Below, piece after piece: positions 2,351-28,403 of a stretch of 64,000 nt of DNA. Made by a program: the position numbers and the translations under genes. The notes beneath the pieces were generated by a model. It saw only the letters and a program-made list of their open reading frames with translations. It did no database searches and was not told where the DNA came from. Numbering within the stretch: the stretch's first letter is position 1; every line of letters starts with the position of its first letter. The stretch is taken from positions 248,001-312,000 of the forward strand of contig NZ_QQTY01000001.1 of the NCBI RefSeq assembly GCF_003670115.1, in the 5' to 3' direction. The stretch comes from Natronorubrum halophilum. Lineage in GTDB: Archaea > Halobacteriota > Halobacteria > Halobacteriales > Natrialbaceae.

Positions 2351-5300
2351 TCAGTTCTCTTCGGCGGCGGCTTCGTCGGTTTCGTTGCCGGCGGTTTCGT
2401 TGCCGGCGGTCTCGTTGCCGGCGGACTCGTTCCCATCGGACTCGTTTCCGGTAGACTCGTTCCCGTCGGATCCGTTCTCGTCCGTCCCGTCGTCCGGAAC
2501 CTCCGATTCGGATTCGTTGTCCGCCGGCTCCTCGAGTTGGGTCTGTTCGAACTCGATGTCGTCGATCGTCTCGCCCTGGACCACCGCCGTCTCGGGAACG
2601 GATAGCTGTCCCTCGTAGCCCTCTTCGCCGGGCACGCCGACGGAAACGGTGTAGTCACCGAGCGCCTCGACGCTGCTGTTCGTGTAGCCGTCCTCGACGC
2701 CCAGTTCATCGTTCGTCGCGTACGGAACGGTCACCTCGAAGGAGCCGTCCGCGGCGAGTTCGACCTCCTGCGTGTAGTTGAACGTCCGATCGGCGTTCGT
2801 CTCGAGTTCGAGTTCGACGTGAACCGTTGCGTCGTCGCCGAGCAAGTCGTCCTCGTCGTCGACGGTGCCGGCGATAGTCGCCCCCTCGACGCGCTCGAAG
2901 GTCTTTACCGCAGCACTTCGTTGAGCATCGAAAAGGACGGTGGACGGATTCTGTTGGAGCCGGAGCGCCCCCTGCTGGCTCTCCGGTCGGTTGATCCGGA
3001 CCGCGGGATTGCCCTCTCCGGGCGGAGCCAGCTGGCCACCCGAAACGTAGAGGACGTCGCCGTTCTCGTACCCCATCGATTCTAACTGCTGGGCCGTCTG
3101 TGGTTGGAACGCCTGCTCGTGGTACACTTCCGCGTAGCTGACGAAGAAGGCCGTTCCGGCATCTTCGTTCTCGTGGACGGTCCGGTAGTGTTCCATCCCC
3201 GATGCGTCGTCGAAGTACAGCTTGGACAACATCGTGTTGTCGTAGGGCACCTCGCCGAACGCCTCCGAGAGATTATCCGCGTGAAGCGGCTCGTCCCCGA
3301 GATCCTCCGCCGTCACGAAGTGGCTGTAGTCCGGCTCCGTCCACTCCGTGATCGCGTGGAACTTGCCGCCGGCCATCGCGTGGTCGATCATCACGTACCG
3401 AATCTCCTCGTGAGTCGCGTCCTCGGCCATCGCCTCGAGTTCCTCGTTCGAGCGCAGGGCGTTCTCGTCGTCGAGCGGCGACTCGCCGGCGGCGATCGTA
3501 TCGAGGACCAACTCGCCTTGCTCTTCGGACTCGGCGGTCAGGAACGCCGAGGACGAACGGGCGTTTTGCTGGAACGGGTTCGAGTGGGGGATCCGCTCGC
3601 CCTGGGTCGTTATCAGGTGACCGTAGTCCCACCACGACATCACGCCGTAGGCCCCCTGGGGATAGTCGTAATCACCACCGTCGGGATACTCGTAGGTGCC
3701 GAAGTAGTCGAGCTCGCTGGCGTTGTCCGCGCCGCCCCAGTTACCCGGTTCGGGCGTGTTTTCGGCGAGCCAGTGGTTCGATTCCTGCCAGTGCATGGCG
3801 TCTTGACTCGGACCGACGTTCTCGCCGCGGTCCCACGCCGTCGCGTTTTCGCCGGCCATCGGCGGCAGCAACGGCGCGAACAGGAGCAAGACGACCATCA
3901 ACAGGACGATGACCTGGTAGGTTTCGACCTGCCGGAGCGAGTCGACGCCGCCCTCGAGGTCGAGGTCGAAAAGGCGGACCACGTCGGCGATGAAGGCGGC
4001 GTTGACGACGGCGACCGCCAGGACGAGGTAGTAGCTGAACCGGACCTGGGTTGCCGTCATGCTGATCAGGAACAGCGACCAGACGATGACCAGCGTGTAC
4101 TCGGCGCGGTAGTCGCGACCGAAGAACGGTCGCGCGACGAGGAGCGCGAGTCCCAAGAGCATCGTGAAGAACGCCGCACCGAACTCGTCGGAGACGTAAC
4201 TCGTGAAGTCGTCCGGCGGCTGGGCTTCCGAGATCGTGAGCGTGCTCGTGCTCGGATCGATCGGCAGCAGTCGGCCCGTGAGGTTCCCGATCAGGGTACT
4301 GTACAGGTCGGGCAGCGCGAGCCACATGACGAGCATCGCGACGCCGGCGATGCCGCCGATCGCGAGGGGGTAGTACCGGCGGTCGAGGTCGCGCTCGTTC
4401 CAGGTGCGGGCGAGCCAGGCCATGAACAGACAACCGACGGCGACGAGGGCCGCGGTCAGCGGCTGGAGAACGCCGAAACTCGAGACGCTGAATCCGATTT
4501 CTTCGATCAGGAGCAGCGTAATGATTGTGGTCACGCCGAGGCTGACCGCGCCGACGAAGGCGACGTGGTCCGGGGAGATACCGCGGAGGTAGTCGAGACA
4601 GAGCTGGATCGCAAAGAAGACGCCGAAGATGCCGATGAGAACGATTGCAGACGGCCACGCCCAGACGTACAGCGACAGGGCGAACCCCGCGAGGACGCTG
4701 TAGATCGTCGGCGTGCGGAGCGCGTCCCAGTCCCGGTCGACGACCAGTTCGTAGATCGGCTGTTCCCGCTCGGCCACGCGGAGGGCGACCATCATCCCGA
4801 GGACGGCGATCGCCATAAAGAGCACCTCGCCGACGTGGTGGTCGAGCTGCCCGACCGTCGATCGCGAAAGGAACGACCCGGGTGCGAGCGCGAGGACGAT
4901 GATCGCGCTGATTCCGCCGATCGTGCCGCCGAGTCGACGCCCCATGTAGAACACGGGGACCGCGACCAGCGCGGCCATCGCCGGAATCGCGAGCAACGCG
5001 ACGGTGTACAGGGTTTCCGCCGACGGATCGCCGAGGCCGACGATCATCGCAACGGTGACGATAAGCTGGTCGAACAGCGTACCGAACTGGCCGACGTAGT
5101 TGCCCGTCGGGAACCCGGTCCAGATCTCGTAGGGCATCGTATTCGGGTAGTTCTCGGCGGTCCACTCGAGCGTTCGCCAGTGGTACCACGAGTCGACGCC
5201 GGCGAGGGCAGGCGTTCCGTCGTCGGTGACGAATCGGTCGTACGACTGGGTTCGTACCCAGAACATAAACAGCATCACGGCCCCGAGAACGGGGATGTGA

Positions 5301-5377
5301 TACCACTTGGCCCACGTCTCGAGGAAGGACGAGGACGTTTCGGCCCCTTCCTCAGCGCGTTCGGTGTCCGTACTCAT
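2351..5377 (-). CDS. aglB: Dolichyl-phosphooligosaccharide-protein glycosyltransferase AglB (STT3)
   Basis: 1008 aa. AglB moves lipid-linked glycans onto Asn of N-X-S/T sequons on the outer membrane face. Visible parts are a first TM segment (about residues 28-42), an early acidic motif GVDSWYHWR (Asp62), a DHH motif in the second external loop (QLDHHVGEV), roughly a dozen TM helices to about residue 510, the WWDYG catalytic motif near residue 580, and a soluble C-terminal domain with beta-sandwich-like stretches. The tail (about the last 55 residues) is an acidic Asn-Glu-Ser/Thr-rich repeat with eight sequons, encoded by imperfect 15-bp DNA repeats. It anchors the neighbouring glycan island. 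Confidence 0.96.
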   Translation of the reverse strand: MSTDTERAEEGAETSSSFLETWAKWYHIPVLGAVMLFMFWVRTQSYDRFVTDDGTPALAGVDSWYHWRTLEWTAENYPNTMPYEIWTGFPTGNYVGQFGTLFDQLIVTVAMIVGLGDPSAETLYTVALLAIPAMAALVAVPVFYMGRRLGGTIGGISAIIVLALAPGSFLSRSTVGQLDHHVGEVLFMAIAVLGMMVALRVAEREQPIYELVVDRDWDALRTPTIYSVLAGFALSLYVWAWPSAIVLIGIFGVFFAIQLCLDYLRGISPDHVAFVGAVSLGVTTIITLLLIEEIGFSVSSFGVLQPLTAALVAVGCLFMAWLARTWNERDLDRRYYPLAIGGIAGVAMLVMWLALPDLYSTLIGNLTGRLLPIDPSTSTLTISEAQPPDDFTSYVSDEFGAAFFTMLLGLALLVARPFFGRDYRAEYTLVIVWSLFLISMTATQVRFSYYLVLAVAVVNAAFIADVVRLFDLDLEGGVDSLRQVETYQVIVLLMVVLLLFAPLLPPMAGENATAWDRGENVGPSQDAMHWQESNHWLAENTPEPGNWGGADNASELDYFGTYEYPDGGDYDYPQGAYGVMSWWDYGHLITTQGERIPHSNPFQQNARSSSAFLTAESEEQGELVLDTIAAGESPLDDENALRSNEELEAMAEDATHEEIRYVMIDHAMAGGKFHAITEWTEPDYSHFVTAEDLGDEPLHADNLSEAFGEVPYDNTMLSKLYFDDASGMEHYRTVHENEDAGTAFFVSYAEVYHEQAFQPQTAQQLESMGYENGDVLYVSGGQLAPPGEGNPAVRINRPESQQGALRLQQNPSTVLFDAQRSAAVKTFERVEGATIAGTVDDEDDLLGDDATVHVELELETNADRTFNYTQEVELAADGSFEVTVPYATNDELGVEDGYTNSSVEALGDYTVSVGVPGEEGYEGQLSVPETAVVQGETIDDIEFEQTQLEEPADNESESEVPDDGTDENGSDGNESTGNESDGNESAGNETAGNETAGNETDEAAAEEN
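2372..2480 (-). repeat. Tandem 15-bp repeat encoding the AglB sequon tail
   Basis: Imperfect repeats of about 15 bp, reading GN-E-(S/T)-x units on the minus strand, lie inside the 3' end of aglB. The last three units are nearly identical at the DNA level, which suggests recent expansion by slippage. Confidence 0.75.
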
Positions 5378-9766: not shown

Positions 9767-10052
9767 TCCGGTTTCGAGTCGCTACTCCTCGCGCACCGCC
9801 GTTCGTTTCGGTCCCGTCGAAGAGACGAGTGCCGGACGACCGAACGGATAATAACTTGACAATGCATCGGATTCGGTTAAACCGCACGCCGTGGTAGACC
9901 GGTACTATGCGACAGGTAGGCGCAGTCCTCTCATCGTCAACGTTCCCCGCGCTCGAGCAGAGATCGTCGTCCGGTCGCGTCGCGTCCGTACCCGAACTCA
10001 CGCCGGTTCCGACGCGAACCGATCGACGGAAAAACGCGAGGGAGTGGCAACG

Positions 10053-14037: not shown

Positions 14038-14100
14038 GGTTCAACAACGTTTTTTCGCGAGAGCCCGTTGGTCGAGGGACGTTCACGCCGGAGTCAAAGT

Positions 14101-15519
14101 ATGAAGCTAGGCCAGATCTCGTTCATCAACTTCGCGTCCCAGATCGCGTCGTCGGTATTCGGGTTTCTCGCGACGATCTACCTCGCTCGCACGCTCGGTG
14201 CGGGCGTGTTGGGGACGTACTTCCTCGTCGTGGCGCTCGTGATCTGGCTGAAAGTGATCGCGTTCGGCGGCGTCCAGTCGGCGCTGACGAAACGCCTGAG
14301 CGAAGGCGGGGACAGCGGGGCGTACGTCACCGCCGGGATGGGGTTGTTTCTCGGGGTTTACGCGGTACTGCTCGTCGGCTTGTTCCTCGCGCGGGATCTC
14401 CTCGCCGCGTACATCGGACGGCCCGTAGCGCTCCCGATCGCCGTCGTCCTCTTCGCGACGCTGCTGCTCATGTTCGTCTCGGGCGCACTCCAGGGACAAC
14501 ACCGCGTCCACATCTCCGGCGCGCTCGAGCCCGTGGACACGTTCTCCCGCAGCACGCTCCAGATCGCCGCCGTCGTCATCGGGTTCGGGCTGTACGGGCT
14601 GCTCGCTGGATACGCGATCGCCAGCGCCGTCGCGGGGCTCGTCGGGGCGATATTCGTCACCTGGAAGGTGGGTCTGCCCGGTCGTCGCCACCTGTGGAGC
14701 CTGTTCGACTACGCCCGATACTCGTGGCTCGGAAGACTGAGTTCGCGCACGTTCTCGTCCATGGACACGCTCGTCCTCGGCGTCTTCGTCGCGCCCGATC
14801 TCATCGGCGTCTACGAGATTTCCTGGAACCTCGCGTCGCTGCTCGCGGTCTTCAGCCTCGCGATTCAGCAGACGCTGTTCCCCGAAATCAGTAGCGTCGC
14901 CGCGGACGACGAGCGCGACCGGATCGTCAACCTTCTGGACGACGCGTTCGCGTACGCCGGGCTGTTTCTCATTCCCGGCCTGGTCGGCAGCGCGCTCATC
15001 GGGGATTTCGTCCTCCGGATCTACGGCCCCGAGTTCGGCGTCGGCCACGTCGTGCTCGTGATACTCGTCGGCTCGAGGCTCGCCTACGCGTACGGCGAGC
15101 AGTTCCTCAACGCGCTCAACGGACTCGACAGACCCGACCTTTCGTTTCGAATCAACGGAATCTTCTTCGTCACCAACATCACCCTCAATGTCGTGCTCGT
15201 CTCCGCGTACGGCTGGGTGGGGGCCGCCGTCGCGACCGCGGTATCCGCGCTAGTAACGCTGGTGATCGGCTACCGGGTTCTCGATCGGTTCATCACGATC
15301 TCGTTCCCGTACCGGGAGGTCGGAACGCAGATGCTCGCCACGGTACCGATGGCCGCCGCCGTCGGTGCCGGACGCCTAGTTCTCGAGCCGAGTGCGCTGG
15401 CGGCCCTGACGCTGGTCACCCTCGGTGCGGCGACGTACTTCGCAGCCCTGTTCCTCCTGTCCGGCCGGTTCCGAGCGACGGTGATTCGCAACTTGCCGAC
15501 GGGGTACGGCGGTTCGTAG
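14101..15519 (+). CDS. Oligosaccharide flippase (Wzx/AglR-like, MATE/MOP superfamily)
   Basis: 472 aa with about 12-14 hydrophobic segments across the whole length and no large soluble domain. The N-terminus (ISFINFASQIASSVFGFLATIYLARTLGAGVLGTYF) is typical of polysaccharide biosynthesis exporters. Such proteins move lipid-linked glycans outward, as proposed for AglR in Haloferax. A second member is encoded at 24212, so the island may export two different glycans. The ATG at 14101 leaves a normal N-terminus; the open frame upstream is short and Arg-rich. Confidence 0.87.
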   Translation: MKLGQISFINFASQIASSVFGFLATIYLARTLGAGVLGTYFLVVALVIWLKVIAFGGVQSALTKRLSEGGDSGAYVTAGMGLFLGVYAVLLVGLFLARDLLAAYIGRPVALPIAVVLFATLLLMFVSGALQGQHRVHISGALEPVDTFSRSTLQIAAVVIGFGLYGLLAGYAIASAVAGLVGAIFVTWKVGLPGRRHLWSLFDYARYSWLGRLSSRTFSSMDTLVLGVFVAPDLIGVYEISWNLASLLAVFSLAIQQTLFPEISSVAADDERDRIVNLLDDAFAYAGLFLIPGLVGSALIGDFVLRIYGPEFGVGHVVLVILVGSRLAYAYGEQFLNALNGLDRPDLSFRINGIFFVTNITLNVVLVSAYGWVGAAVATAVSALVTLVIGYRVLDRFITISFPYREVGTQMLATVPMAAAVGAGRLVLEPSALAALTLVTLGAATYFAALFLLSGRFRATVIRNLPTGYGGS

Positions 15520-15550: not shown

Positions 15551-16408
15551 TTAGCTCGACGGCCGCGCCTCGAGGCTCTCGTACTCCCAGATCAGGTCGA
15601 AATACCGTAGCATTCCGGCGACGAACGATCCGTTTTCCGTGATCGCAGCCTGCCGCCGGTGGTCGGGCACGTCGGTCTCCTCGACGAGGAAGATCGCCTT
15701 CCCCGAGTCGTACGCCATGCTGGGATCGACGAACGTCCCGCGCCACGGGAGTCGCTCCTCGCTGAACCGGTAGTCGATCGCCGGAAACTCGGCCTCGAGT
15801 CGGTCGACGACGTCCGCCTGCACGGCGGCTTTCTCCTGCGGGAGCGTTCGCGGGTCGAGGAAGAGTATCGAAACGTCGACGCCGTTCTCGAGCGCGCCGT
15901 TTACGGCCGGTTCGACGTCGTCGAAGTAGGCGAAGCTGTTGGTGATGACGAAGACCTCGTCCGTCGCGTTCCGGTAGAGCTGTCGGGTCTCCGTCTCGCT
16001 CGGCGTTCCGACGTCGACCACGTGAAACAGTTCGGCCGTCGGCGTCACGTCCTCGTCCGCCCGCTCGTACAACGGGCCGAACTCCTCGATGAACGCCTCG
16101 CGGAGATCCTCGACCTCGGTGCAGTAGTCCTCGTATCGCTGTCGCCGGTTCTCCTTCGCTCGCTCGAGGATCTCCGCGGGCGATTTCGGCTGGTACTGCT
16201 TCGGTCGGCCCGGAATCACCTTGATGAAGCCGTAATCGGCCAGCGAATCGAGGACGCCGTACACCCGCGCCTGCGGGATGCCCGTCGCCTCGGAGATATC
16301 CGGAGCCGTCGTCCGACCGGCGCTCAGCAAGTGGGCGAGCGCCGTGGCCTCGTACTCCTTCAGGTTCAGTTGCTGAAGCAGTTCCGTCGAACCGGTTCGC
16401 GGACCCAT
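15551..16408 (-). CDS. TrmB-family transcriptional regulator
   Basis: 285 aa. An N-terminal winged helix (LNLKEYEATALAHLLSAGRTTAPDISEATGIPQARVYGVLDSL) is followed by a coiled-coil stretch and a phospholipase-D-like TrmB ligand region (VFVITNSFAYFD). TrmB proteins sense sugars and control sugar uptake and metabolism in archaea. It is convergent with the flippase gene and follows the epimerase cluster, so control of the surrounding sugar genes is a reasonable guess. The start at 16408 gives MGPRTGSTELLQQL; the open frame further upstream is unlike the family. Confidence 0.85.
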   Translation of the reverse strand: MGPRTGSTELLQQLNLKEYEATALAHLLSAGRTTAPDISEATGIPQARVYGVLDSLADYGFIKVIPGRPKQYQPKSPAEILERAKENRRQRYEDYCTEVEDLREAFIEEFGPLYERADEDVTPTAELFHVVDVGTPSETETRQLYRNATDEVFVITNSFAYFDDVEPAVNGALENGVDVSILFLDPRTLPQEKAAVQADVVDRLEAEFPAIDYRFSEERLPWRGTFVDPSMAYDSGKAIFLVEETDVPDHRRQAAITENGSFVAGMLRYFDLIWEYESLEARPSS

Positions 16409-16509
16409 TGTCGTTCGATTGACCGCGAACGACCGTAAATCCGAGTGGTTGCATACCTCGAGCGCTCTCCGAAACGGTTCGTGGATCTCGGGAACGGTCC
16501 GCGAGTCGC

Positions 16510-17499
16510 CTACGCGCGCCGTCGCAGTAGCTCTCGGACCGATTCCTCGACCGAGTGGTGCACCTCCCACCCGAGCGTCTCGGTCGCTCTCGAGGTGTCG
16601 ACCGCGAACTCCTCGACCATCGTCTCGGCGCTCCGCGGGTTCTCGACGAGTTCGACGTCGACCGTCTCGCCGAGTTCGTCGCGAGCGAGGTCGCGGACCG
16701 TTTTCGCGACCGCCATCACGGACGGATCCTCGTCGCCGGCGATCTCGTACGTCTCGGTGCCCGTTTCCCCGTCCGCGAGCTGTTCGAGCAGCCGCTCCGC
16801 GCTCCGGACGTAGGCCCTCGCGACGTCTTTGACGTGGACGAAGTTGCGCGACTGCGTCCCCGGTTCGTACACCGTCAGCGTCTCGCCCGCCGCCGCCCGC
16901 TCGACGAAGAAATTAATCACGGTCGGTTTCGAGACGACGGTCCCGTCGATGACGTGATCCCCGTAGAGGTTCGACTTCAAGAGCAGGTGTGCGGGGAACG
17001 AGCCGTCGGCGAACGCCTCGATCGCCCGTTCGCCGAGGAGCTTCGTCCGCCCGTACCAGTTCATCGGATCGCGCGCCAGATCCGCGGTGATCGGGAACGT
17101 CTCGGGATCGCCGAGGACGGCCATGCTGTACGGGAACACGAGCGCCGCGCCGGTCTTCCGACAGAACCAGGCGACGTTGTTCGTCCCCGTGACGTTGACT
17201 TCGTACGCCAGATCGGCGTTCTCGTCGCAGTCGTCGACCCCGCTGACCGCCGCGAGGTGGAAGACGATGTCCGCCCCCTCGAAGCGTTCCTCGAGCCGGT
17301 ATCGATCTCGAACGTCCACGTGGTCGATGTCCACGTCCTCGACGGAGTCAACCTGCCCGCGGTACTGGTTGTCGAGCGTGAGCACGTTCCACTCGGGATG
17401 CGTCGCCCGGAGTTGCTGTACGACGCGGCTGCCGATGAACCCGGACGCGCCGGTGATCGCGATCGTCGGTTCGTCGCGAGCGGTCGTCGGTCCGGTCAC
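16510..17499 (-). CDS. NAD-dependent epimerase/dehydratase (SDR)
   Basis: 329 aa. Extended SDR with GASGFIGS for NAD binding, VFHLAAVSG, and the catalytic Tyr/Lys pair in WYGRTK (YxxxK). A GTG start at 17499 overlaps the upstream stop by four bases, so the three SDR genes 19698-16510 form a coupled operon. The operon probably makes a nucleotide sugar for the glycan island; the exact reaction (epimerisation, dehydration or reduction) is not clear. It is the last gene of the operon. Confidence 0.85.
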   Translation of the reverse strand: MTGPTTARDEPTIAITGASGFIGSRVVQQLRATHPEWNVLTLDNQYRGQVDSVEDVDIDHVDVRDRYRLEERFEGADIVFHLAAVSGVDDCDENADLAYEVNVTGTNNVAWFCRKTGAALVFPYSMAVLGDPETFPITADLARDPMNWYGRTKLLGERAIEAFADGSFPAHLLLKSNLYGDHVIDGTVVSKPTVINFFVERAAAGETLTVYEPGTQSRNFVHVKDVARAYVRSAERLLEQLADGETGTETYEIAGDEDPSVMAVAKTVRDLARDELGETVDVELVENPRSAETMVEEFAVDTSRATETLGWEVHHSVEESVRELLRRRA

Positions 17500-18449
17500 G
17501 CCTCGATCACTCGCGTTCGTGTTCGTCGCAGTCGGTCCGCGAGTTCGCGAACGCCCCGTCGAACCGTCCACTCGGTCTCGAATCCCGTCTCGGCCAGCCG
17601 ATCGAAGTTCACGTGGTAGGACGGTCCGGGATGTTCGTCCCCGAGGTAGGTGATCTCGAGGTCGCGGTCGAGTTCGTCGCGGACGATTCTGGCGATGTCG
17701 GCGATCCGGTAGTTCTCGTCGTTCGAGCCGACGTTGTAGACCAGTTGTGGCCACGACTCGGGCTCGAGGGCGGCGTGTGCGTACGCCCGCGCGGCGTCCT
17801 CGACGTGGATGAACGGCCGCCAGTTGCGGCCGTCGCCGTACACCGTCAGCGGGCGGTCGGTCAGCCCGCGGAAGACGAAGTGGTTCACGACCAGGTTGAA
17901 GCGGACGCCCGGCGACCAGCCGTAGTTCGTACTCATCCGCAACGCCGTGCCGTCGATGCCGTGGTCATCGATCGCTTCGGCGAGCAGCTCCTCCGACTCG
18001 ACTTTCGACGCCGCGTAGGGGTTGATCGGATCCTGCTCGGACGTCTCCTCGAGGTTCCTACTGGCCGCCTGCCCGTAGTTGTTACACGACGACGCGAACA
18101 CGACGGATTCGACATCGAGCTTCCCGGCGGCGGTGAGCACGTTCTCCGTCCCGTCGCGATTGACCGCGAAGGTCTCGTCACGGCGGTCGTGGGTCGAGGC
18201 CGCGCCCGTGATCGCCGCCAGGTGGATGACGCTGTCGACGCCGCGCATCGCGCGTTCGACGTCGCCGTATTCGCGAACGTCGCCCCGGTGGAACCGTAGC
18301 GAACCGTCGATACACCCGCGGAGGGTTTCCGGGGAACCCGACGCGAGCGAGTCGAGGACGACGACCTCCTCAACCCGCTCGTCCTCGAGTAACTGCGGGA
18401 CGAGCGCGCTCCCGATGTAGCCACAGCCCCCCGTTACGAGGACGCGCAT
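17496..18449 (-). CDS. NAD-dependent epimerase/dehydratase (SDR)
   Basis: 317 aa. The Rossmann motif is TGGCGYIGS at the N-terminus, HLAAITGA follows, a Ser-rich substrate strand is present (FASSCNNYG), and the YxxxK pair is PYAASK. A C-terminal YNVGSNDENYRIADIA element resembles UDP-glucose 4-epimerase-type enzymes. It begins one base past the stop of the SQD1-like gene and overlaps the next gene by four bases. It could act on the sugar made by its neighbour. Substrate unknown. Confidence 0.85.
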   Translation of the reverse strand: MRVLVTGGCGYIGSALVPQLLEDERVEEVVVLDSLASGSPETLRGCIDGSLRFHRGDVREYGDVERAMRGVDSVIHLAAITGAASTHDRRDETFAVNRDGTENVLTAAGKLDVESVVFASSCNNYGQAASRNLEETSEQDPINPYAASKVESEELLAEAIDDHGIDGTALRMSTNYGWSPGVRFNLVVNHFVFRGLTDRPLTVYGDGRNWRPFIHVEDAARAYAHAALEPESWPQLVYNVGSNDENYRIADIARIVRDELDRDLEITYLGDEHPGPSYHVNFDRLAETGFETEWTVRRGVRELADRLRRTRTRVIEA

Positions 18450-18450
18450 G

Positions 18451-19698
18451 CTACTCGGCCTCTGTATCGACCGGCTGTGTTTCATCGGACGACGATTCCT
18501 CGGCGTCGGAAGCCGTTTTGGCCGCCTCGTCTCCGGTCAACACGTCCGGCAGGAACCGGTCTTCGTGCGCCTCGATCGTGTCGTCGTACTCGCCTATCGT
18601 TCCGAGGACCTCCCTGACCCCCTCCTCGAACGTGGTCGACTGACCGTCGATCAGGTCGACGTACCGATCGTTCTCGATCTCCATCTTGTGGGTTTCGTCC
18701 TCCTCGCGGGGGTTTTCGAAGTGTTCGACGTCGACGTCGAGATCGAATTCACCGGCGACGTCGGCGATCGTCTCCGCGACTTCGACGATGCTGATCGCCC
18801 GCGTCACCTGATTGTAGACGACGTGATCGTCGGGTCTCTCCGCGGGATCGGAGAGGGCCAGTCGCGCCAACCCTTCGACGGCGTCCTCGAGCGCGATGAA
18901 GGGTTTGCGCTGCTCGCCCCGTCCGTAGACGGTCATCGGGTACTCGGCGACCGCCTGGGCGCAAAACCGGTGGGCGACCACGCCGAAGTAGTAGTCGAAG
19001 TCGAACCGGGTTGCCAGGCGCGGATCCGCGGCCGTCTCCTCGGTTTCGCTCCCGTACGTGATCGCCGTCCGAACGTCCGAGATCGGAATGTCGAACTGCG
19101 TGTGCGCGAGACGCATGTTGGCCGCGTCGTGGCTCTTGGTGAGGTGGTACCAGCTCCCGGCCATCGCGGGGAACGGAACCTCGTCGCGTTCGCCCTCGTG
19201 CTCCATCGTCGCCCCGCCTTCGGGGATCGGAAACTCGGGCGCGCCGTAGACGCCGGTCGTCGTCGTCTCGATGAAGTGCGTGTCCGTGAGTCCGTGTTCC
19301 TCGAGACCCCACAGCAGGTTCCGCGTCGCCTGCATGTTGTTGTGCTGGGTGTAGTTCGCTCGCTCGCCGTTGATCTGTGAGTACGGTGCCGACGGCTGTG
19401 CGGCGGTGTGGACGATCACCGACGGTTCGTGGATCGACAGCAAGCGGTCGACGGTCTCCGTATCGGTCAGGTCTCCCTCGATGAACGAGAGGTTCGCGCA
19501 TCCGTGTACCTCCTCGGCCGCCGCGAGACGCTCGGCCATCTCGGCCGCGGGCACGGCGCTCGTCGAACCGACGGAGTCGACCCACTCTCGTCTGGCGAGG
19601 GTGTCGACGAGAACCACCCGATCGGTCGTCCGCGTCGCGATTCGAAGTGCCGTCGGCCATCCGATGTATCCATCGGCTCCCGTAACGAGTACGGTCAT
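18451..19698 (-). CDS. UDP-sulfoquinovose synthase-like SDR (SQD1/Agl3 family)
   Basis: 415 aa. Residue patterns follow SQD1 throughout: TGADGYIGWPTAL, then HTAAQPSAPYSQI, RANYTQHNNMQATRNLLWG, ETTTTGVYGAPEFPIPEGG, the catalytic WYHLTK pair, and RFDFDYYFGVVAHRFCAQA. SQD1 makes UDP-sulfoquinovose from UDP-glucose and sulfite, and Sulfolobus Agl3 does so for N-glycans. A C-terminal acidic tail of about 35 residues is extra. Context (AglB, flippases, GTs) suggests a sulfonated sugar in a surface glycan or glycolipid, which is inference. It is first in a three-SDR operon. Confidence 0.85.
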   Translation of the reverse strand: MTVLVTGADGYIGWPTALRIATRTTDRVVLVDTLARREWVDSVGSTSAVPAAEMAERLAAAEEVHGCANLSFIEGDLTDTETVDRLLSIHEPSVIVHTAAQPSAPYSQINGERANYTQHNNMQATRNLLWGLEEHGLTDTHFIETTTTGVYGAPEFPIPEGGATMEHEGERDEVPFPAMAGSWYHLTKSHDAANMRLAHTQFDIPISDVRTAITYGSETEETAADPRLATRFDFDYYFGVVAHRFCAQAVAEYPMTVYGRGEQRKPFIALEDAVEGLARLALSDPAERPDDHVVYNQVTRAISIVEVAETIADVAGEFDLDVDVEHFENPREEDETHKMEIENDRYVDLIDGQSTTFEEGVREVLGTIGEYDDTIEAHEDRFLPDVLTGDEAAKTASDAEESSSDETQPVDTEAE

Positions 19699-20584: not shown

Positions 20585-21544
20585 ATGAAGGTCTCCGTCG
20601 TCATCTGTACCTACGCAATGGATCGCTACGACGTGTTCTCCAAATGCGTCGACAGCGTCCTCGCCCAGACGTACGATCCACTCGAGGTCGTCATCGTGGT
20701 CGACGGGAACGACGACGTCTTCGATCGTGTCCGTACCGATTACGCCGCTCACGACACGGTGAACGTACACTGTAACGATGTGAATCAGGGCATCTCCTAC
20801 AGTCGGACTCGAGGCGCCGAACTCGCGACCGGCGACGTCGTGGCGTTCATCGACGACGACGCCGTCGCCGAGGACGACTGGGTGGCACAACTGGCTCGAA
20901 TGTACGACGAAACCGATGCGGTCGCCGTCGGCGGCCACGCCAAACCGGATTGGGTTACCGAAAAACCGGACTTTTTCCCCGAAGAGTTCTACTGGCTCGT
21001 CGGCTGCGACGAACGCGGGATGGGCGAGCACATGGAGGAGTTGCGGAACACGTACGGCTCGAACATCTCGTTTCGCCGGGAGGTGTTCTTGAACGTCGGC
21101 GGCTACGACGAGAACACGGGTCGACACGGCGATCGACACATCCAGGCCCACGAAGCGCCGGTCTGTATCCGGATGGCGAACAAGTACGGGAAGGGCGTGG
21201 TGTACAACACGGAGGCCGTGGTACACCACAAACTGTTCGACTATCGCGGCGACTTCCGGTGGCTCGTGTTCCGGTCGTTCTGGCAGGGCTACTCGAAGCG
21301 GATCATGGACCTGCTGCTGCCCGAGGCGTCGGGTGATAAAAACCAGTATCTGAAACGACTCATGCTCGAGTTCGTTCCGTCTCGCTTGTCGGATCTCGTG
21401 CGGAAGCCGTCGGGACCGAAGGCGAAACAGTTGGTGTCGATTCTGGTCTTCACCGCGGCGGTCGGGTTTGGGTATCTATACGGGCTTCTCGAGGTGGAGC
21501 GCTCGGAGTTGACCGCCGATCGTGAGGCTGTGGCAGAGGTCTAA
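20585..21544 (+). CDS. AglG-like family 2 glycosyltransferase, second copy
   Basis: 319 aa, a clear paralog of the gene at 5513. It shares the VSVVICTYAMDRYDVF start, VVIVVDGNDDV, the FIDDDAVAEDDW motif, FFPEEFYWLVG, SFWQGYSKRIMDLLLP and the C-terminal membrane helix VFTAAVGFGYLYGLL. Two copies in one island suggest two hexuronic-acid steps or two separate glycans. It is monocistronic, facing a convergent GT gene. Confidence 0.88.
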   Translation: MKVSVVICTYAMDRYDVFSKCVDSVLAQTYDPLEVVIVVDGNDDVFDRVRTDYAAHDTVNVHCNDVNQGISYSRTRGAELATGDVVAFIDDDAVAEDDWVAQLARMYDETDAVAVGGHAKPDWVTEKPDFFPEEFYWLVGCDERGMGEHMEELRNTYGSNISFRREVFLNVGGYDENTGRHGDRHIQAHEAPVCIRMANKYGKGVVYNTEAVVHHKLFDYRGDFRWLVFRSFWQGYSKRIMDLLLPEASGDKNQYLKRLMLEFVPSRLSDLVRKPSGPKAKQLVSILVFTAAVGFGYLYGLLEVERSELTADREAVAEV

Positions 21545-21580: not shown

Positions 21581-22492
21581 TTACTGCTCGAGTCGCGGGA
21601 TCCCATCTTCGAGGTCCGGCTCTCGATTGCCGATGAGGTACTCTCGGTAGTAGCCCAGGCCGCGGACGCCGGTGAGGGTTCTCGAGAGCGCGCCGAACGC
21701 GAGACGCTCACCGCGCGGGAGGTTGTGATCTGGGGACTTGATACCGCTCGGTCGAGGCGGAATGCTGGGTGTACCGTAGCGGGCGGGATGATAGCGCTGG
21801 AGCTGGCAGAGGCCGCGACCGACACGGAGATCTTTCTTGACGAGCGCTTGCAGCGAGTTTCGCGTCGGGTGAAACATGGTGACGTCCTCGGCGAAGTGCA
21901 TGTCGTAGCTCGCCTCGTGGACCCGATTGCCGAACTCCTTGTCACCGCCGGAGACGAGTCGATAGTCGAACAGACCGACATCCTCGAAGACTTCGCGGCG
22001 GACGAAGAGACAGCAGGTCGGGGCGAAGTGCTGGCGCTCGATGTATTGTTCGATGGGGAAGCCAGTGTGGTGATCGTAGCGGGCCGCGAGTGTCGGGCTT
22101 TCTGGGAGGATGAGGTCGACGTTGCAGCCCATGTAGTCGGCGTCTGTGGTTTGGAAGGTTTCGAGGGCGGACTCGAGCCAGTCTTCGGGGACGGTCATAT
22201 CCGCGTCGACGAACGCGAGGATATCACCGGTTGACGTCTGAATGCCAGTGTTTCGAGCGGCGTACGAGCCCTGCCGCTTGGCCTCGACCAGTACCCGTGC
22301 ATTGTCGACGTCATCAAGACGTTCCTCAACAACCGTTTGCGTCCGGTCTGACGAGCCGTTGTCTACGACCAGTAGTTCGTACTCGTCTCCGGGAAGCGAC
22401 TGCGAGCGCAACGATGCGATCGTTGTCGCAACTCCGTCTGGATCGTTGTAGACGGGAACGATAAGTGAGATTTCGGCCGATGAGGGATTCAT
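21581..22492 (-). CDS. Family 2 glycosyltransferase
   Basis: 303 aa from the ATG at 22492 (an in-frame ATG three codons earlier, at 22501, is equally possible). GT-A signatures are ISLIVPVYNDPDGVATTIASL, LLVVDNGSSDRT, GSYAARNTGI and FVDADMTVPEDW. The middle contains CCLFVRREVFEDVGLFD, an acceptor-side feature of many polysaccharide GTs. No C-terminal TM helix is seen. Codon use is less GC-rich at third positions than in the 5-19 kb genes. Substrate unknown. Confidence 0.87.
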   Translation of the reverse strand: MNPSSAEISLIVPVYNDPDGVATTIASLRSQSLPGDEYELLVVDNGSSDRTQTVVEERLDDVDNARVLVEAKRQGSYAARNTGIQTSTGDILAFVDADMTVPEDWLESALETFQTTDADYMGCNVDLILPESPTLAARYDHHTGFPIEQYIERQHFAPTCCLFVRREVFEDVGLFDYRLVSGGDKEFGNRVHEASYDMHFAEDVTMFHPTRNSLQALVKKDLRVGRGLCQLQRYHPARYGTPSIPPRPSGIKSPDHNLPRGERLAFGALSRTLTGVRGLGYYREYLIGNREPDLEDGIPRLEQ

Positions 22493-22721
22493 ACGCTTCA
22501 TTCGGCGGAATGGTCTGAAAAAATCACCGTTACTGCGGGTATACGGGAAGCGAGTTCATACCGACTGCGTTCCACGGACTAGTCGGGATACCTCAATAGT
22601 ATCGTTCCGGCCGGAAATAACCGTCAACAGATCAGCAGCGGCCAATCTGCAAGTTTTCGTGATCCTAGGGATACGTCAAATCGATACATACTTTCCTGTC
22701 GAACGGAATTCTTACCGTTAT

Positions 22722-24149
22722 ATGTCCTCTCCGAACGTGCTCTTGATTGTTCTTGATAGCGTTCGTGCCCGAAACACCAGTCTTCACGGGCATCACTGCG
22801 AGACGACACCTGTTCTCGACCGCTTCGCAGAGGGGGCGACTCGGTATACGCAGGCTCGCGCACCCGGAATTCACAGTATTACCAGTCACATCAGTCTGTT
22901 CACCGGCCACGCCGTTGCACAGCATCGAGCGACCGACCACGGCGTCTCGCTCAAGTCGGGCCACACTGTCTGGGAGACGCTGGTCGAACAGTACGACTAC
23001 GAAACCGGACTCTTCACGCCGAATTCGATCGTCTCTGAATCGTCGAATCTCGCGGAGTTCTTCGAACATTTAGTTGGCCCGAAACGCCGGATCGAGGCAT
23101 TCCCCGAAGCGATCTCGCCCCAGGACGTTTCGGGTAATCCGTCCTACGTCGAATACGTCGCTGAGTGTCTCCGTGATGACCGACCGCTCCGATCGATCTG
23201 GAACGGGCTTGCTCGCTTGACCGAATCCGGATCGCTCGCGCACTCACCGTCCAAAGAACACGGCGGTATCTATACGGACGAATTGCTCGAGTGGATCGAT
23301 AATCGGACCGGACCGTGGGCGGCCTGTCTTAACCTGATGGATGCTCACTATCCCTATGTTCCGGACGACAAGTACAATCGATGGGGGGGACAGAAACTCC
23401 GGGCAATTCAAGACGACATTCCAGATGGTCCGCTCGTCAACGCCGGCTTCTTCGAGGACAGGCCGTGGTGGCAACTCGCGGTCCTCGAGACGATGTACGA
23501 CGGCTGTATCAGACAGGCTGATGCACATATCGGCAAGTTGTTGACGGGACTTCACGATCGCAACGCGTTCGATGATACCCTGATCGTTGTGACAAGTGAT
23601 CACGGTGAAGGGTTCGGCGAGTTGAGCGTCGTCTCGCCCGGCGTGCGACTCGTCGATCATAACTGGGGGATTGATGAAGCGTTAACACACGTCCCGTTGG
23701 TCGTCAAGCACCCTGATCAACGGAACGGCGAGGAAATCACTGACCCAGTTTCGCTCGCCGCGTTCCCGTCGGTCGCCGAGCGGATGGTCGAGGGTGAGAG
23801 TAGACCATCATTTGTATCCGACAGGCCGGTCCTGACGACTTGCTATCGCCTCAAGGAACCCGACGAGTCGCTATCGATCCCTCGAGAGGACCAAGAGACG
23901 TACCTCGGTCCGTGGCACGCCCGCTATCGGACGGCTGACCAAGGAGTCGAGAAAGACGTTCATCACCGGGGAGCCGAGATGACCGTTCACGCACCCGATT
24001 CACGGTCGTCCTACAAGCGTTCACGCGAACCGGCGACCGACACCGTCGAATCGACGATTGCCTCTCTTGAACAGATAGATATCGTGGCTGGCGAGCAAGA
24101 TATTTCGGACGACGTCGAAACCCGTCTCGAAGAACTCGGTTACCGATAA
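22722..24149 (+). CDS. Sulfatase-superfamily protein, Ser at the nucleophile position
   Basis: 475 aa from MSSPNVLLIVLDSVRARNTS; the frame continues upstream but with no family-like residues. Superfamily metal motifs include LDSVRA at the N-terminus and VTSDHGEGFGE near residue 290, with NLMDAHYPYVPDD between. At the C-x-P-x-R position the sequence is SITSHISLFTG: Ser for Cys, no Pro, His for Arg. A formylglycine sulfatase is therefore unlikely, and a phosphotransferase or phosphatase is possible. It is first in a run with flippase, GT61 and a close paralog at 26991. Confidence 0.82.
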   Translation: MSSPNVLLIVLDSVRARNTSLHGHHCETTPVLDRFAEGATRYTQARAPGIHSITSHISLFTGHAVAQHRATDHGVSLKSGHTVWETLVEQYDYETGLFTPNSIVSESSNLAEFFEHLVGPKRRIEAFPEAISPQDVSGNPSYVEYVAECLRDDRPLRSIWNGLARLTESGSLAHSPSKEHGGIYTDELLEWIDNRTGPWAACLNLMDAHYPYVPDDKYNRWGGQKLRAIQDDIPDGPLVNAGFFEDRPWWQLAVLETMYDGCIRQADAHIGKLLTGLHDRNAFDDTLIVVTSDHGEGFGELSVVSPGVRLVDHNWGIDEALTHVPLVVKHPDQRNGEEITDPVSLAAFPSVAERMVEGESRPSFVSDRPVLTTCYRLKEPDESLSIPREDQETYLGPWHARYRTADQGVEKDVHHRGAEMTVHAPDSRSSYKRSREPATDTVESTIASLEQIDIVAGEQDISDDVETRLEELGYR

Positions 24150-24211
24150 GTCATGATTTCGAACACGACCCGGACTATCATCAAGCGAGCGGGTGGCGAG
24201 GTGGTGCGTGG

Positions 24212-25648
24212 ATGAGAGTCGGTCAACAGTCATTCGTCTACTTCCTTGCGAAGAACGCTGCGTACGTCGTCTCATTTCTGGCAGTGGTCTATTTCGCACG
24301 GCTCGTCGATCCGAGTACGCTCGGCATCTACTACGTCGTCATCGGACTCCTCTCCTGGTTACAGCTCCCCGGAAACATGGGAATCTCGTCAGCTATCAAA
24401 AAGCGGGTCAGCGAGGGGACCGACGCCAACGAACACATCACGGCAGGCATCATCGTCATCGGTACGCTGTTCGTCGTTACGGCGGGATTGCTGTTCGCGT
24501 TTAGTGAGTACGTAACGGCGTACATCGGTGCCGACGTGACGGAATATCTCGTCTTGTTACTATTCGCGGGCCTCAGTTATTCGATCGTTCAGGCCGTGCT
24601 TGAGGGCAGACAACTTGTTCACGTCTCTGGACTGCTCTTCCCGGTCAAAGTCGGCGGTAGAAGTCTTTTGCAGATTTCATTCGTGATCGCCGGATTCGGA
24701 CTCGTCGGAATGCTTGCCGGATTCGCCATCGGCGTCCTCGCGGCCGCCGTGCTGGGAGCGACTGTATTGACGCTCCGACTCCGGCGACCAGCCAGACGAC
24801 ACTTCAAAAATATTGGCTCCTTCGCCAAGTACTCGTGGCTCGGTTCGGTTCAATCGCGGACATTCAACTGGATCGACATACTCCTCCTGAACGTCTTCGT
24901 CTCCAGCGCACTCGTCGGTTCGTACTCCGTCGCATGGAACGTCGCCGCGTTTCTCAATACGTTCGGCGTGTCGGTCAGCAGATCTATTTTTCCGGAGATC
25001 AGTAAATTATCGACTGACAACAGTATTGATTCGACGACCCACTTGATCGAAGACGCGCTCTCGTACGCGGGACTGATGCTAATCCCCGGATTTATCGGCG
25101 GACTACTCATCGGTGACCGGGTAATACGATTGTACGGGGCAGAGTACGTCACTGGAACGGCAGTTCTCGGGATCCTGATCGCAGCCTGTCTGGTTAACGG
25201 CTACCAGCGACAACTTCTGACGACATTCAACGCGCTTGATCGCCCCAATCTGGCATTTCGCGTCAACGCGGTCTTCGTCGCGAGCAACGTCGTACTCAAT
25301 GTCGTGTTCATCACCCAGTTCGGATGGATCGGAGCGGCGTACGCAACATTGCTCACCGTTTCCGTCGCAACGTGTGCGTCGTTCATGCTCCTCTCTCGGC
25401 TCGTTACATTCTCCGTTCCAGTCACAGAAATCGCACGCCAGTGGATCGCTGCGATCGCAATGGGCATCGTCATCTACGTCGTGGAGCCGATGGTTTCCCC
25501 GCTCGAGGGAGCAATCCCATTCGGTACTACCGTCGGGACGATCATTCTCGTAGCGATCGGTGCGTCCATCTATTTCCTCACACTGATCGGAATCTCGAGA
25601 GAATTTCGGACGACCGTCGAACAGAACCTACCCGTAGACGAACCGTGA
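24212..25648 (+). CDS. Oligosaccharide flippase (Wzx/AglR-like), second copy
   Basis: 478 aa with about 12-14 hydrophobic segments. The N-terminus (MRVGQQSFVYFLAKNAAYVVSFLAVVYFARLVDPSTLGIYY) parallels the flippase at 14101, as does KYSWLGSVQSRTFNWIDILLLNVFV. It follows the sulfatase-like gene by 62 bp and precedes GT61 by 49 bp. It probably exports the lipid-linked glycan made by this sub-cluster. Confidence 0.87.
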   Translation: MRVGQQSFVYFLAKNAAYVVSFLAVVYFARLVDPSTLGIYYVVIGLLSWLQLPGNMGISSAIKKRVSEGTDANEHITAGIIVIGTLFVVTAGLLFAFSEYVTAYIGADVTEYLVLLLFAGLSYSIVQAVLEGRQLVHVSGLLFPVKVGGRSLLQISFVIAGFGLVGMLAGFAIGVLAAAVLGATVLTLRLRRPARRHFKNIGSFAKYSWLGSVQSRTFNWIDILLLNVFVSSALVGSYSVAWNVAAFLNTFGVSVSRSIFPEISKLSTDNSIDSTTHLIEDALSYAGLMLIPGFIGGLLIGDRVIRLYGAEYVTGTAVLGILIAACLVNGYQRQLLTTFNALDRPNLAFRVNAVFVASNVVLNVVFITQFGWIGAAYATLLTVSVATCASFMLLSRLVTFSVPVTEIARQWIAAIAMGIVIYVVEPMVSPLEGAIPFGTTVGTIILVAIGASIYFLTLIGISREFRTTVEQNLPVDEP

Positions 25649-25697
25649 TAAGAAACATTCCGATACATATTACTCATCGTCGCCGGATATCCCCAGC

Positions 25698-26897
25698 GTG
25701 AACCTGCTTCGACGCGCGTTTCGGAAGTACCGGATATCGGGTATCAGACCCGTCATCTCGGAGGCACAGACACTCATCTATCGCGACCGGATTCTGTCCG
25801 ACCTGTTCGTCGAACGCTGGTTCGACCGGCTCAAGGCGGAGGGACGACTACTCACGAGGCCGGCACTTCGTGATCAAGCCGAGTGGACAGTGGGCCCGGC
25901 ACCGCCGAACTCGGAAATCGTCCAGAAAGGGAGCTTGAATATCGGAGAGCCGTTCGCGAACAAGGAGACGAAAGCACTCACCGAACCGGCCGTGGCATCG
26001 TTCCCTAACGGTCGACTACTCGGTCCAGTAGGACTGGGAATGACTGAGGACGGAAACCTAATTACGGACACGATCGCACGACCGGAGAATACGGTTCGTC
26101 GAATCACCATCGGAATCGGGTCTCTCGCGGCCGAGAACGGGGTTCGTCAGACCCGGTCGACGTTGTTCGGAACCGGTCCCGAACCGACACGGCAGGTCGA
26201 GCGAGCGAGCGCAATTCTCCCCCTTTGGAACAACTACTACCACTGGACGGTCGAGTGTCTCCCCCGGCTCCGCTCACTCGAACAGTATGCAGCCGAGACC
26301 GGAACGAGACCGACCGTCTTCGTTCCGTCAGATATGTCTGGGTGGATGCTCGAGTGGCTCTCGATTCTCGGCTGGGAAACGCACATCGAACCGCTCCCGA
26401 ACGAGACCGTCGAAGCGGAGCAGTTAGTCGTAACGTCACACCCTGAACCGATCCCGGCAGACTGCATGTGGCTTCGTGAACGCGGATTCGAGGCCGCCGA
26501 CTGGGACGATGACGGTTCGAGCTCACGCCGGGTTTATATATCGCGGGCCGACGCGACCAGACGTCGAGTGAGCAATCGCTCTCGACTGGACCCGCTTCTC
26601 GAGGAGTTTGGGTTCGAATCCTACGTCCTCGGAGAGCTCACGGTTGCCGAACAGATTGGCCTGTTTTCCGAGGCCGAAATCGTTCTCGCACCACACGGTG
26701 CGGGTCTCACGAACGTCGTCTTTGGTAGGGACCTCTCCGTCGTCGAATTGTTCGGACCGAAGAAGAACACGACATTCTACCGGCTCTCGGACCTGTGCGG
26801 TCACGAGTATCGATCGCTCGAGTGCCCCTCAGACGGACTCGATATCGACGTCGATCTGGATGTACTACGAACAGTACTGGAGGACGTTACGGCATAA
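25698..26897 (+). CDS. Glycosyltransferase family 61 (DUF563)-like protein
   Basis: 399 aa from a GTG start. The GT61 pattern is visible: an ILPLWNNYYHWTVECLPRL segment, later RRVYISRADATRRRVSN, EEFGFESYVLGELTVAEQIGLFSEAEIVLAPHGAGLTNVVF and VELFGP. The HGAGLTN motif is the family hallmark. GT61 members include xylosyl-, arabinosyl- and GlcNAc-transferases. Here it would add one sugar in the acquired-looking sub-cluster 22.7-28.4 kb. Confidence 0.85.
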   Translation: MNLLRRAFRKYRISGIRPVISEAQTLIYRDRILSDLFVERWFDRLKAEGRLLTRPALRDQAEWTVGPAPPNSEIVQKGSLNIGEPFANKETKALTEPAVASFPNGRLLGPVGLGMTEDGNLITDTIARPENTVRRITIGIGSLAAENGVRQTRSTLFGTGPEPTRQVERASAILPLWNNYYHWTVECLPRLRSLEQYAAETGTRPTVFVPSDMSGWMLEWLSILGWETHIEPLPNETVEAEQLVVTSHPEPIPADCMWLRERGFEAADWDDDGSSSRRVYISRADATRRRVSNRSRLDPLLEEFGFESYVLGELTVAEQIGLFSEAEIVLAPHGAGLTNVVFGRDLSVVELFGPKKNTTFYRLSDLCGHEYRSLECPSDGLDIDVDLDVLRTVLEDVTA

Positions 26898-26961
26898 GTA
26901 TGGAGAACACATGGCCCACGAACGACCTTCGACCGATGACGAACCGGTAGCTCCGTTAGCG

Positions 26962-26967
26962 TTATAC
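26962..26967 (+). promoter_or_regulatory. TATA box of the third sulfatase-like gene
   Basis: TTATAC ends 23 bp before the ATG at 26991, suggesting this gene has its own promoter despite the tight arrangement. Confidence 0.4.
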
Positions 26968-26990
26968 TACCCGGCTAAAGAGAGGACCGC

Positions 26991-28403
26991 ATGACCTCGC
27001 CCAACGTTCTCCTCGTCATTCTCGACAGCGTCCGAGCGGCGAACACGAGTCTTCACGGACATTACAACGAGACGACGCCGGAACTCGAGGCGTTCGCCTC
27101 GGAGGCGACGGTGTATACGCAGGCCCACTCGCCCGGCATCCATAGTATCGCAAGCCACGTGAGTATTTTTACCGGTTACGAAGTCGCCGAACACCGTGCA
27201 GTAGATCACACAGCAGAAATCGAACCGGGAACAACTATCTGGGAGGAACTCTCCGAGATTGGGTATCAGACGGGGCTCTTCACGTCGAACAGCGTCATCG
27301 CCGACGCATCATCGCTCGCTCAGTCGTTCGATGATGTGGATGGGCCATCAGCCTCTGCATACCCCTTTCCTGACGCACTATCACCCGATGAGTTGAGCGG
27401 TGAAACCGGAAAGTGGGAGTTTCTCAGGGCTGCACTCGGTAGCAATCAACCGGTCAGATCACTTTCCAATGGTGTCAGTGACCAACTCCGACGAATTCGC
27501 GGACCGTTGGTCGATCACGACGAGAGTCGCCAACATATCGACTCGTTTCTCGAGTGGACAGACGAGCGGACCCGGCCGTGGGCCGCGTGTCTCAACCTCA
27601 TGGACGCCCACTATCCGTACCTCCCTGCGCCGAGATACGATCGATGGGGTGGATCTCGACTCCGAGAACTTCACGAGGAGATTAGGGAGCCACTGTTACG
27701 CGAATTTCTGGGTGGCCGACCCTGGTGGCAACTGGGTGCGTTCGAATCGCTGTACGACGGGTGTATTCGTCAGGCCGATGCGATTGTCCATGAGTTGCTC
27801 GACGCTTTGCGCGCCCGGGACGAACTATCGAACACTTTACTCGTCATTACGTCCGACCACGGCGAAGGATTTGGCGAACCGTGTGAGCTTGGAACCCCAG
27901 TTAGACTAATCGATCACAACTTCGGAGTCAACGAACAGTTGACACACGTTCCACTCATCGTGAGCCATCCCGGTCACGATCAGGGAGAGACAGTCGACAA
28001 ACCGGTTTCGCTGGCCCAGTTCCCTGCTGTCGTGCATGCACAACTCGAGGGGCGCCATCGGACGTTCAAACGGGCTGATCCGGTACTCACCACAACGTAT
28101 CGAATTCAGGAGCCCGGTGACGAACTCCCGCTGGAGGCGACCGATCGTTCTCCGTACTTCGGGCCGTGGCACGCGATATACGAAACTCGAGACGGCGTCG
28201 TTCGAAAGGACGCACTTCATAACGAGTACGATGCACAGATGGCGATTCCGAACGCCTGCGAGCGATCCGTCGTCGGCCGCGCCGATCGAACGCGTATCGA
28301 GGAAACTATTTCGTCTCTCGAGCCGGCGACAATCGTTTCCGGGCAGCAGCAGGTCTCGGACTCGATTGAACAACGGCTGAACGATCTCGGCTACATCCAA
28401 TAA
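26991..28403 (+). CDS. Sulfatase-superfamily protein, paralog of the one at 22722
   Basis: 470 aa, very similar to the 22722 product: MTSPNVLLVILDSVRAANTSLHGH at the start, NLMDAHYPYLPAP, ITSDHGEGFGEP and the ending RLNDLGYIQ. The nucleophile region reads SIASHVSIFTG, again Ser without the C-x-P-x-R signature. The two flank a flippase and GT61, as if a duplicated cassette had been split. They may add the same group (for example a phospho-substituent) at different glycan positions, which is inference. Confidence 0.82.
   Translation: MTSPNVLLVILDSVRAANTSLHGHYNETTPELEAFASEATVYTQAHSPGIHSIASHVSIFTGYEVAEHRAVDHTAEIEPGTTIWEELSEIGYQTGLFTSNSVIADASSLAQSFDDVDGPSASAYPFPDALSPDELSGETGKWEFLRAALGSNQPVRSLSNGVSDQLRRIRGPLVDHDESRQHIDSFLEWTDERTRPWAACLNLMDAHYPYLPAPRYDRWGGSRLRELHEEIREPLLREFLGGRPWWQLGAFESLYDGCIRQADAIVHELLDALRARDELSNTLLVITSDHGEGFGEPCELGTPVRLIDHNFGVNEQLTHVPLIVSHPGHDQGETVDKPVSLAQFPAVVHAQLEGRHRTFKRADPVLTTTYRIQEPGDELPLEATDRSPYFGPWHAIYETRDGVVRKDALHNEYDAQMAIPNACERSVVGRADRTRIEETISSLEPATIVSGQQQVSDSIEQRLNDLGYIQ

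Follow-up and report, generated by a model that had tools for sequence, protein, structure and literature searches.

A conserved three-SDR cassette led by an SQD1/Agl3-family gene in Natronorubrum halophilum, with a possible role in the synthesis of a 6-sulfo amino sugar

The SQD1/Agl3-family gene of Natronorubrum halophilum analyzed here (gene 1) leads a cassette of three SDR genes that is real, widely conserved and partly described, and the annotation of such genes as UDP-sulfoquinovose synthases is doubtful. Our preferred reading, to which we assign a probability of roughly 45%, is that the cassette uses UDP-GlcNAc to build a nucleotide-activated 6-sulfo amino sugar for a cell-surface glycan. 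The gene lies in a stretch of 64,000 nucleotides, hereafter the window. Since 2006, haloarchaeal genes of this kind have carried the name UDP-sulfoquinovose synthase and have been cited in support of sulfolipids or of glycans with sulfoquinovose. That name misleads if the clade lacks residues required by Agl3 and serves an amino sugar instead. The missing 6-sulfo-quinovosamine enzyme of Haloarcula would then become directly testable, and the cassette would illustrate a diversification of the SQD1-type route to C6-sulfonated sugars.

The three-gene cassette and its conservation

Gene 1 is an open frame that begins with ATG and whose limits on the minus strand of the window are exactly 18451 and 19698. 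On the same strand it is followed by SDR2, SDR3 and a TrmB-type regulator, in that order, with a gap of a single base between gene 1 and SDR2 (TAG-C-ATG) and an overlap of 4 bases between SDR2 and SDR3 (GTGA); this arrangement agrees with the three-SDR operon described in an earlier note on this DNA. AglB, glycosyltransferases and two flippases, which the same note had placed nearby, are all present in the window, where gene 1 is also surrounded by two AglG equivalogs, AglF and three sulfatase-superfamily genes. The principal features, with their positions and strands, are the following:

18451..19698, minus strand: gene 1, SQD1/Agl3-family SDR, 415 amino acids (open reading frame, profile, PDB and fold matches)
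19393..19395, minus strand: Pro102 codon of gene 1, at the SQD1 Arg101 position (QPSAPYS, not QRSAPYS)
19255..19260, minus strand: Thr147-Thr148 codons, the catalytic Thr (SQD1 T145) and the Thr at the Met146 position
19135..19149, minus strand: catalytic Tyr184-x3-Lys188
17496..18449, minus strand: SDR2 (gene 2), GalE/dehydratase-like, motif SSCNNYG...YAASK
16510..17499, minus strand: SDR3 (gene 3), GalE-like, motif YSMAVLG...YGRTK, with a GTG start overlapping the SDR2 stop
15551..16570, minus strand: TrmB-family transcriptional regulator following the cassette (coordinates of the longest frame; translation probably starts further in)
2351..5377, minus strand: AglB oligosaccharyltransferase, some 13 kb away from gene 1
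14068..15519, plus strand: polysaccharide flippase-like protein
24212..25648, plus strand: second flippase-like protein
20585..21544, plus strand: AglG-type glucuronosyltransferase, over the NF041394 cut-off

Other genes of this glycosylation island were also recorded. A second AglG-type glucuronosyltransferase lies at 5513-6433, both AglG-type copies of the island scoring above the equivalog cut-off, and the sulfatase-superfamily (PF00884) genes are located at 7450-8808, 22659-24149 and 26991-28403. The plus-strand gene at 9891-11117 encodes a cysteine synthase-type PLP enzyme whose best NCBIfam matches, cystathionine beta-synthase and CapA cysteate synthase, are about equal and both far below cut-off; on a Pseudonocardia plasmid (L135), too, the first annotated gene behind the SQD1 homologue is cysteine-synthase-like. 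At 29369-30351 on the plus strand, adjoining AglF, a UDP-sugar epimerase-like gene is split over two frames, one holding the N-terminal part and another SSVYG...YGVTK, with an apparent frameshift at about 29750; either the gene is broken or the sequencing is in error. The GC content across 22001-28000 is 0.56-0.58, compared with about 0.65, and this segment, which holds sulfatases, a flippase and a GT61-type gene, is possibly acquired DNA.

We searched a class sample of 391 genomes and found gene 1 in 157 of them (about 40%), representing 52 of the 86 genera. The cassette is a near-obligate unit, an observation that is new here: an SDR2 orthologue (threshold E <= 1e-85) accompanies gene 1 in 149 of the 157 genomes and is found in none of the 234 genomes that lack it. 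Within the genus of N. halophilum, only 1 of the 8 sampled genomes carries gene 1, so the distribution of the cassette is patchy. Gene order could be judged at 76 named loci that were long enough. SDR2 lies directly downstream of gene 1 in 70 of these and SDR3 directly after SDR2 in 59, while 69 contain both partners; 27 of the 76 have a TrmB-type gene no more than about 3 kb from the cassette, and 7 non-halobacterial loci have one as well. The catalytic Ser/Thr of SDR2 stands in an invariant [ST]-Cys-Asn (119 of 119 sequences) and SDR3 carries Ser-Met-Ala in 113 of 115, non-halobacterial orthologues included in both cases. By analogy, the SDR2 cysteine may be a lead, as it recalls the Thr-Cys-Glu of TunA, a UDP-GlcNAc 5,6-dehydratase (PMC8987622). 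At four loci outside Halobacteria (L142, L144, L145 and L146), one of the two partners is a different SDR.

Proximity to AglB was considered as a general property of the cassette and rejected, given that the two lie within 10 kb of each other in 1 of 59 genomes and within 20 kb in 11 of 59. Scans of viral sequences returned no virus-borne copies of gene 1. The genome of Hfx. volcanii, used as a control, gave no match to gene 1, though the same genome does match AglB.

Family membership and active site of gene 1

Gene 1 belongs to the SQD1/Agl3 family, as the earlier note had recognized, and SQD1 is its best relative of solved structure, by sequence as well as by fold. The similarity is far beyond chance: the search against the PDB returned SQD1 (1qrr/1i24) with E 6e-67, and the NCBIfam model for UDP-sulfoquinovose synthase (NF041015) matched positions 1-384 with 336.8 bits and E 1.6e-100. 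This score is below the equivalog cut-off of 575 bits that marks full-length membership, and none of the 295 genomes in a phylum sample passed that cut-off. The AlphaFold model of gene 1 (pLDDT 83.5, pTM 0.85) gave SQD1 as all of its top three Foldseek matches (TM 0.82/0.87), with the next fold trailing by about 14 orders of magnitude in E-value. The earlier note had suggested a phylogeny with SQD1 and Agl3. In our tree the subfamily groups together (support 91/94) and is separate from the canonical rows; the grouping of those rows has weak support and contains long branches.

The 130 aligned homologues in which individual residues (SQD1 numbers) were compared come from the haloarchaea and from further families of their phylum. 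His96, Thr145, Tyr182 and Lys186, and with them the SDR catalytic Thr, Tyr and Lys, are conserved in all 130; in gene 1 the catalytic residues are Thr147, Tyr184 and Lys188, and these, like the SAPYS...YTQHNN stretch, had been pointed out before and are present. The long SQD1-specific stretches kept in the subfamily are QxSAPYS, YTQHNN and NPRxExE, the invariant columns being taken over a set that included the two canonical-type rows. Three other positions are replaced almost throughout, namely Arg101 (Pro in 128 of 130), Met146 (Thr in 127 of 130) and Glu148 (Val, Ile or Leu in 128 of 130). Judged by these sequences, the clade is a distinct subfamily with Arg101 and Met146 replaced, which is new here.

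Arg101 is found in SQD1, in a canonical archaeal copy (L114) and in five bacterial plasmid sequences (L135-L139). Among all canonical sequences compared it is missing only from L115, a divergent outlier that nevertheless keeps GTMGE, and no member of the subfamily has it. At the Met that follows the catalytic Thr, L135 and L137 deviate too, and 3 of the 5 plasmid sequences read GTMGVYG, the motif of the alphaproteobacterial SqdB relatives. The change of Glu148 to Val was rejected as a sign of lost function, since these relatives also have Val. The GalE Tyr299 gate position was likewise dropped as an indicator of the substrate: it is Met in 123 of the 130 homologues, which fits UDP-GlcNAc, but Leu in the alphaproteobacterial SqdB relatives. 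The closest bacterial plasmid relative (43% identity) is the L135 homologue, at 6001-7149 of plasmid pPA12743CP of Pseudonocardia autotrophica; it has Arg101 and GTLGKYG, adjoins a GT2 gene and lies near a MurJ-like gene.

Mutagenesis of Agl3, as described in Zolghadr 2015 (PMC4388408), found His95, Arg101, Met145, Tyr182 and Lys186 to be essential, with R101A and M145A each inactivating the enzyme, Glu147 and Tyr148 to be important (12-15% activity left on mutation) and Thr144 to be dispensable. We matched residues by motif, the His95/Arg101 numbering in this paper being off by one relative to its own primers. Gene 1 lacks Arg101 and Met145/146, on which Agl3 depends, and may thus have lost sulfite addition as well. 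The earlier proposal of a sulfosugar synthase holds for the family, while activity as a UDP-sulfoquinovose synthase is not established with Arg101 replaced by Pro and Met146 by Thr. A loss of sulfite-binding residues, named in the earlier note as a point against its proposal, is plausible from the Arg101 replacement and not demonstrable, as Arg101 is only a candidate for a sulfite-site residue. The gene 1 model is ligand-free, with pLDDT 66-80 in blocks 101-110 and 141-190, and its active-site loops are too uncertain for the sulfite site to be read from it.

Linkage to amino-sugar supply and the candidate product

GlmS is the commonest neighbor family besides the cassette and its regulator, occurring at 25 of 80 named loci. 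In 26 of 59 genomes, from 19 genera, a glmS is found no more than 10 kb from gene 1, where we estimate a chance expectation of about 0.7 (2.1 glmS per genome, genomes of about 3.7 Mb); these counts come from related genomes that are not independent, and the number of genera is the fairer figure. For comparison, aglB and glmS were within 10 kb of each other in 0 of 59 genomes. UDP-glucose dehydrogenase lies within 10 kb of glmS in 15 of 52 genomes (7 genera), and 11 of these 15 share the cassette neighborhood. Three non-haloarchaeal loci, from other families of the phylum, display related arrangements: L147 reads SQ-SDR2-SDR3-GlmU-GlmU-GlmS, all in one direction; L145 reads SQ-SDR-GlmU-GlmU-GlmS, co-directional, with one SDR and with a small gene separating the glmU copies; and in L146, glmS and glmU follow a short way downstream, on the opposite strand. 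The cassette is tied to UDP-GlcNAc supply in separate lineages. The N. halophilum genome has four glmS copies, the nearest about 170 kb from the cassette. The glmS linkage shows that an amino sugar is supplied somewhere in the glycan, and is not proof that gene 1 uses one.

According to our preferred reading, gene 1, SDR2, SDR3 and the TrmB-type regulator would together serve the production of one nucleotide-activated sugar for a surface glycan. Gene 1 would act on UDP-GlcNAc, not UDP-Glc, along the scheme that PMC4388408 gives for Agl3 (C4 oxidation by bound NAD+, 5,6-dehydration, sulfite addition and C4 reduction): C4 would be oxidized by the bound NAD+, water would then be lost across C5-C6, sulfite would presumably be added at C6, and by homology the reduction of C4 would close the cycle. 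The product would be N-acetylated UDP-6-sulfo-quinovosamine rather than UDP-sulfoquinovose. SDR2 and SDR3 may be companions in the same pathway, perhaps performing a dehydration, epimerization or reduction step, and the sugar may be delivered to an AglB-linked glycan. We favor the amino-sugar product over plain sulfoquinovose because of the glmS/glmU linkage and the presence of 6-sulfo-QuiN in Haloarcula. The reading is weakened by the loss of Arg101 and Met145/146, by the distance between glmS and the cassette in the N. halophilum genome and by the fact that canonical synthases need no SDR partners. A search of this genome for PAPS reductase (PF01507) found none at E <= 1e-10, a result that bears on the supply of sulfite and also counts against the reading.

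Among families and folds, NF041015 and SQD1 match gene 1 best by a wide margin, and Gln100 and SAPY are retained along with His96, Thr145, Tyr182 and Lys186, which would suit a divergent but genuine UDP-sulfoquinovose synthase that uses UDP-Glc and sulfite, has another residue in place of Arg101 and relies on the two SDRs to supply or modify the sugar. The signature around Glu148 is flexible in the alphaproteobacterial SqdB relatives, which lack this residue as well; a haloarchaeal S-layer has been reported to contain residues of the sulfoquinovose type, and the Haloquadratum annotation matches. We consider this explanation unlikely, since it requires activity without Arg101 throughout a subfamily when R101A and M145A inactivate Agl3, and it leaves the glmS/glmU linkage unexplained. 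Sulfoquinovose was reported in Hfx. volcanii, without a pathway; that report was rejected as support because the species lacks gene 1, and it instead tells against this explanation.

It is also unlikely that the clade has left sulfonate chemistry, with the likeness to SQD1 reflecting ancestry only and the three SDRs forming another nucleotide-sugar pathway, for example one in which oxidation, epimerization or dehydration of UDP-GlcNAc leads to another surface amino sugar. Such a departure would fit the replacement throughout the clade of Arg101, Glu99 and Met146, which mark sulfoquinovose synthases off from ordinary SDRs, the epimerase-like appearance of the TTGVYG motif, the PF01507 search result and the pairing with two more SDRs, unlike canonical synthases. 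The long SQD1-specific stretches that are kept extend beyond a bare SDR scaffold, however, and the occurrence of 6-sulfo-QuiN in Haloarcula also speaks against it.

A broader version of the preferred amino-sugar reading would make the haloarchaeal 'SqdB' cassette a UDP-6-sulfo-QuiNAc pathway for surface glycans, in which the single-enzyme SQD1 reaction is split among three co-inherited SDRs in about 40% of the sampled haloarchaea; this version is tentative and, taken whole, doubtful. In the literature searched, we found no earlier proposal of an amino-sugar role for the cassette.

Comparison with known systems

Gene 1 and its two GalE-like SDR genes fit the definition of the SqdB cassette of the Hqr. 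walsbyi type. The 2006 genome paper of Haloquadratum walsbyi reported an operon of SqdB and two GalE homologs and linked it to sulfolipids (PMC1544339); it is the same three-gene cassette, the L098 copy falling in the clade, with 64-66% identity for SDR2/SDR3. The sulfolipid role was proposed there in relation to phosphate limitation and without a functional test, and the literature searched yielded none for the three-SDR arrangement. The distant 'cluster IV' of haloarchaeal UDP-sulfoquinovose synthases in Zolghadr 2015 (PMC4388408) is the same clade, with only 36 residues identical to other synthases; in its available excerpts, the paper makes no mention of the absent Arg/Met, the glmS link or the SDR partners. 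The combination of genes, which the earlier note did not know from described haloarchaeal pathways, had thus already been reported.

The S-layer proteins of Haloarcula hispanica carry N-linked 6-sulfo-QuiN b(1,6)-[Glc a(1,2)]Gal (PMC9943897, citing Lu 2015), an account whose available excerpts do not name the biosynthetic genes. This sulfonated amino sugar occurs in a species of a genus with gene 1 in all near-complete genomes (28 of 28 for the genus of Haloarcula argentinensis, a genus-level match).

With SQD1, the UDP-sulfoquinovose synthase of Arabidopsis, gene 1 shares the fold, the SDR triad, QxSAPYS and YTQHNN, at 32% identity in the structural alignment, and it differs by Arg101 to Pro, Glu99 to Ala, Met146 to Thr, Gly144 to Thr and Glu148 to Val. 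SQD1 also works without SDR partners, whereas gene 1 comes with two. Agl3, the UDP-sulfoquinovose synthase of N-glycosylation in Sulfolobus acidocaldarius, resembles gene 1 in its NF041015 family and its archaeal surface-glycan context; in contrast, the Arg101 and Met145 on which Agl3 depends are replaced in gene 1, which reaches 337 bits against the cut-off of 575.
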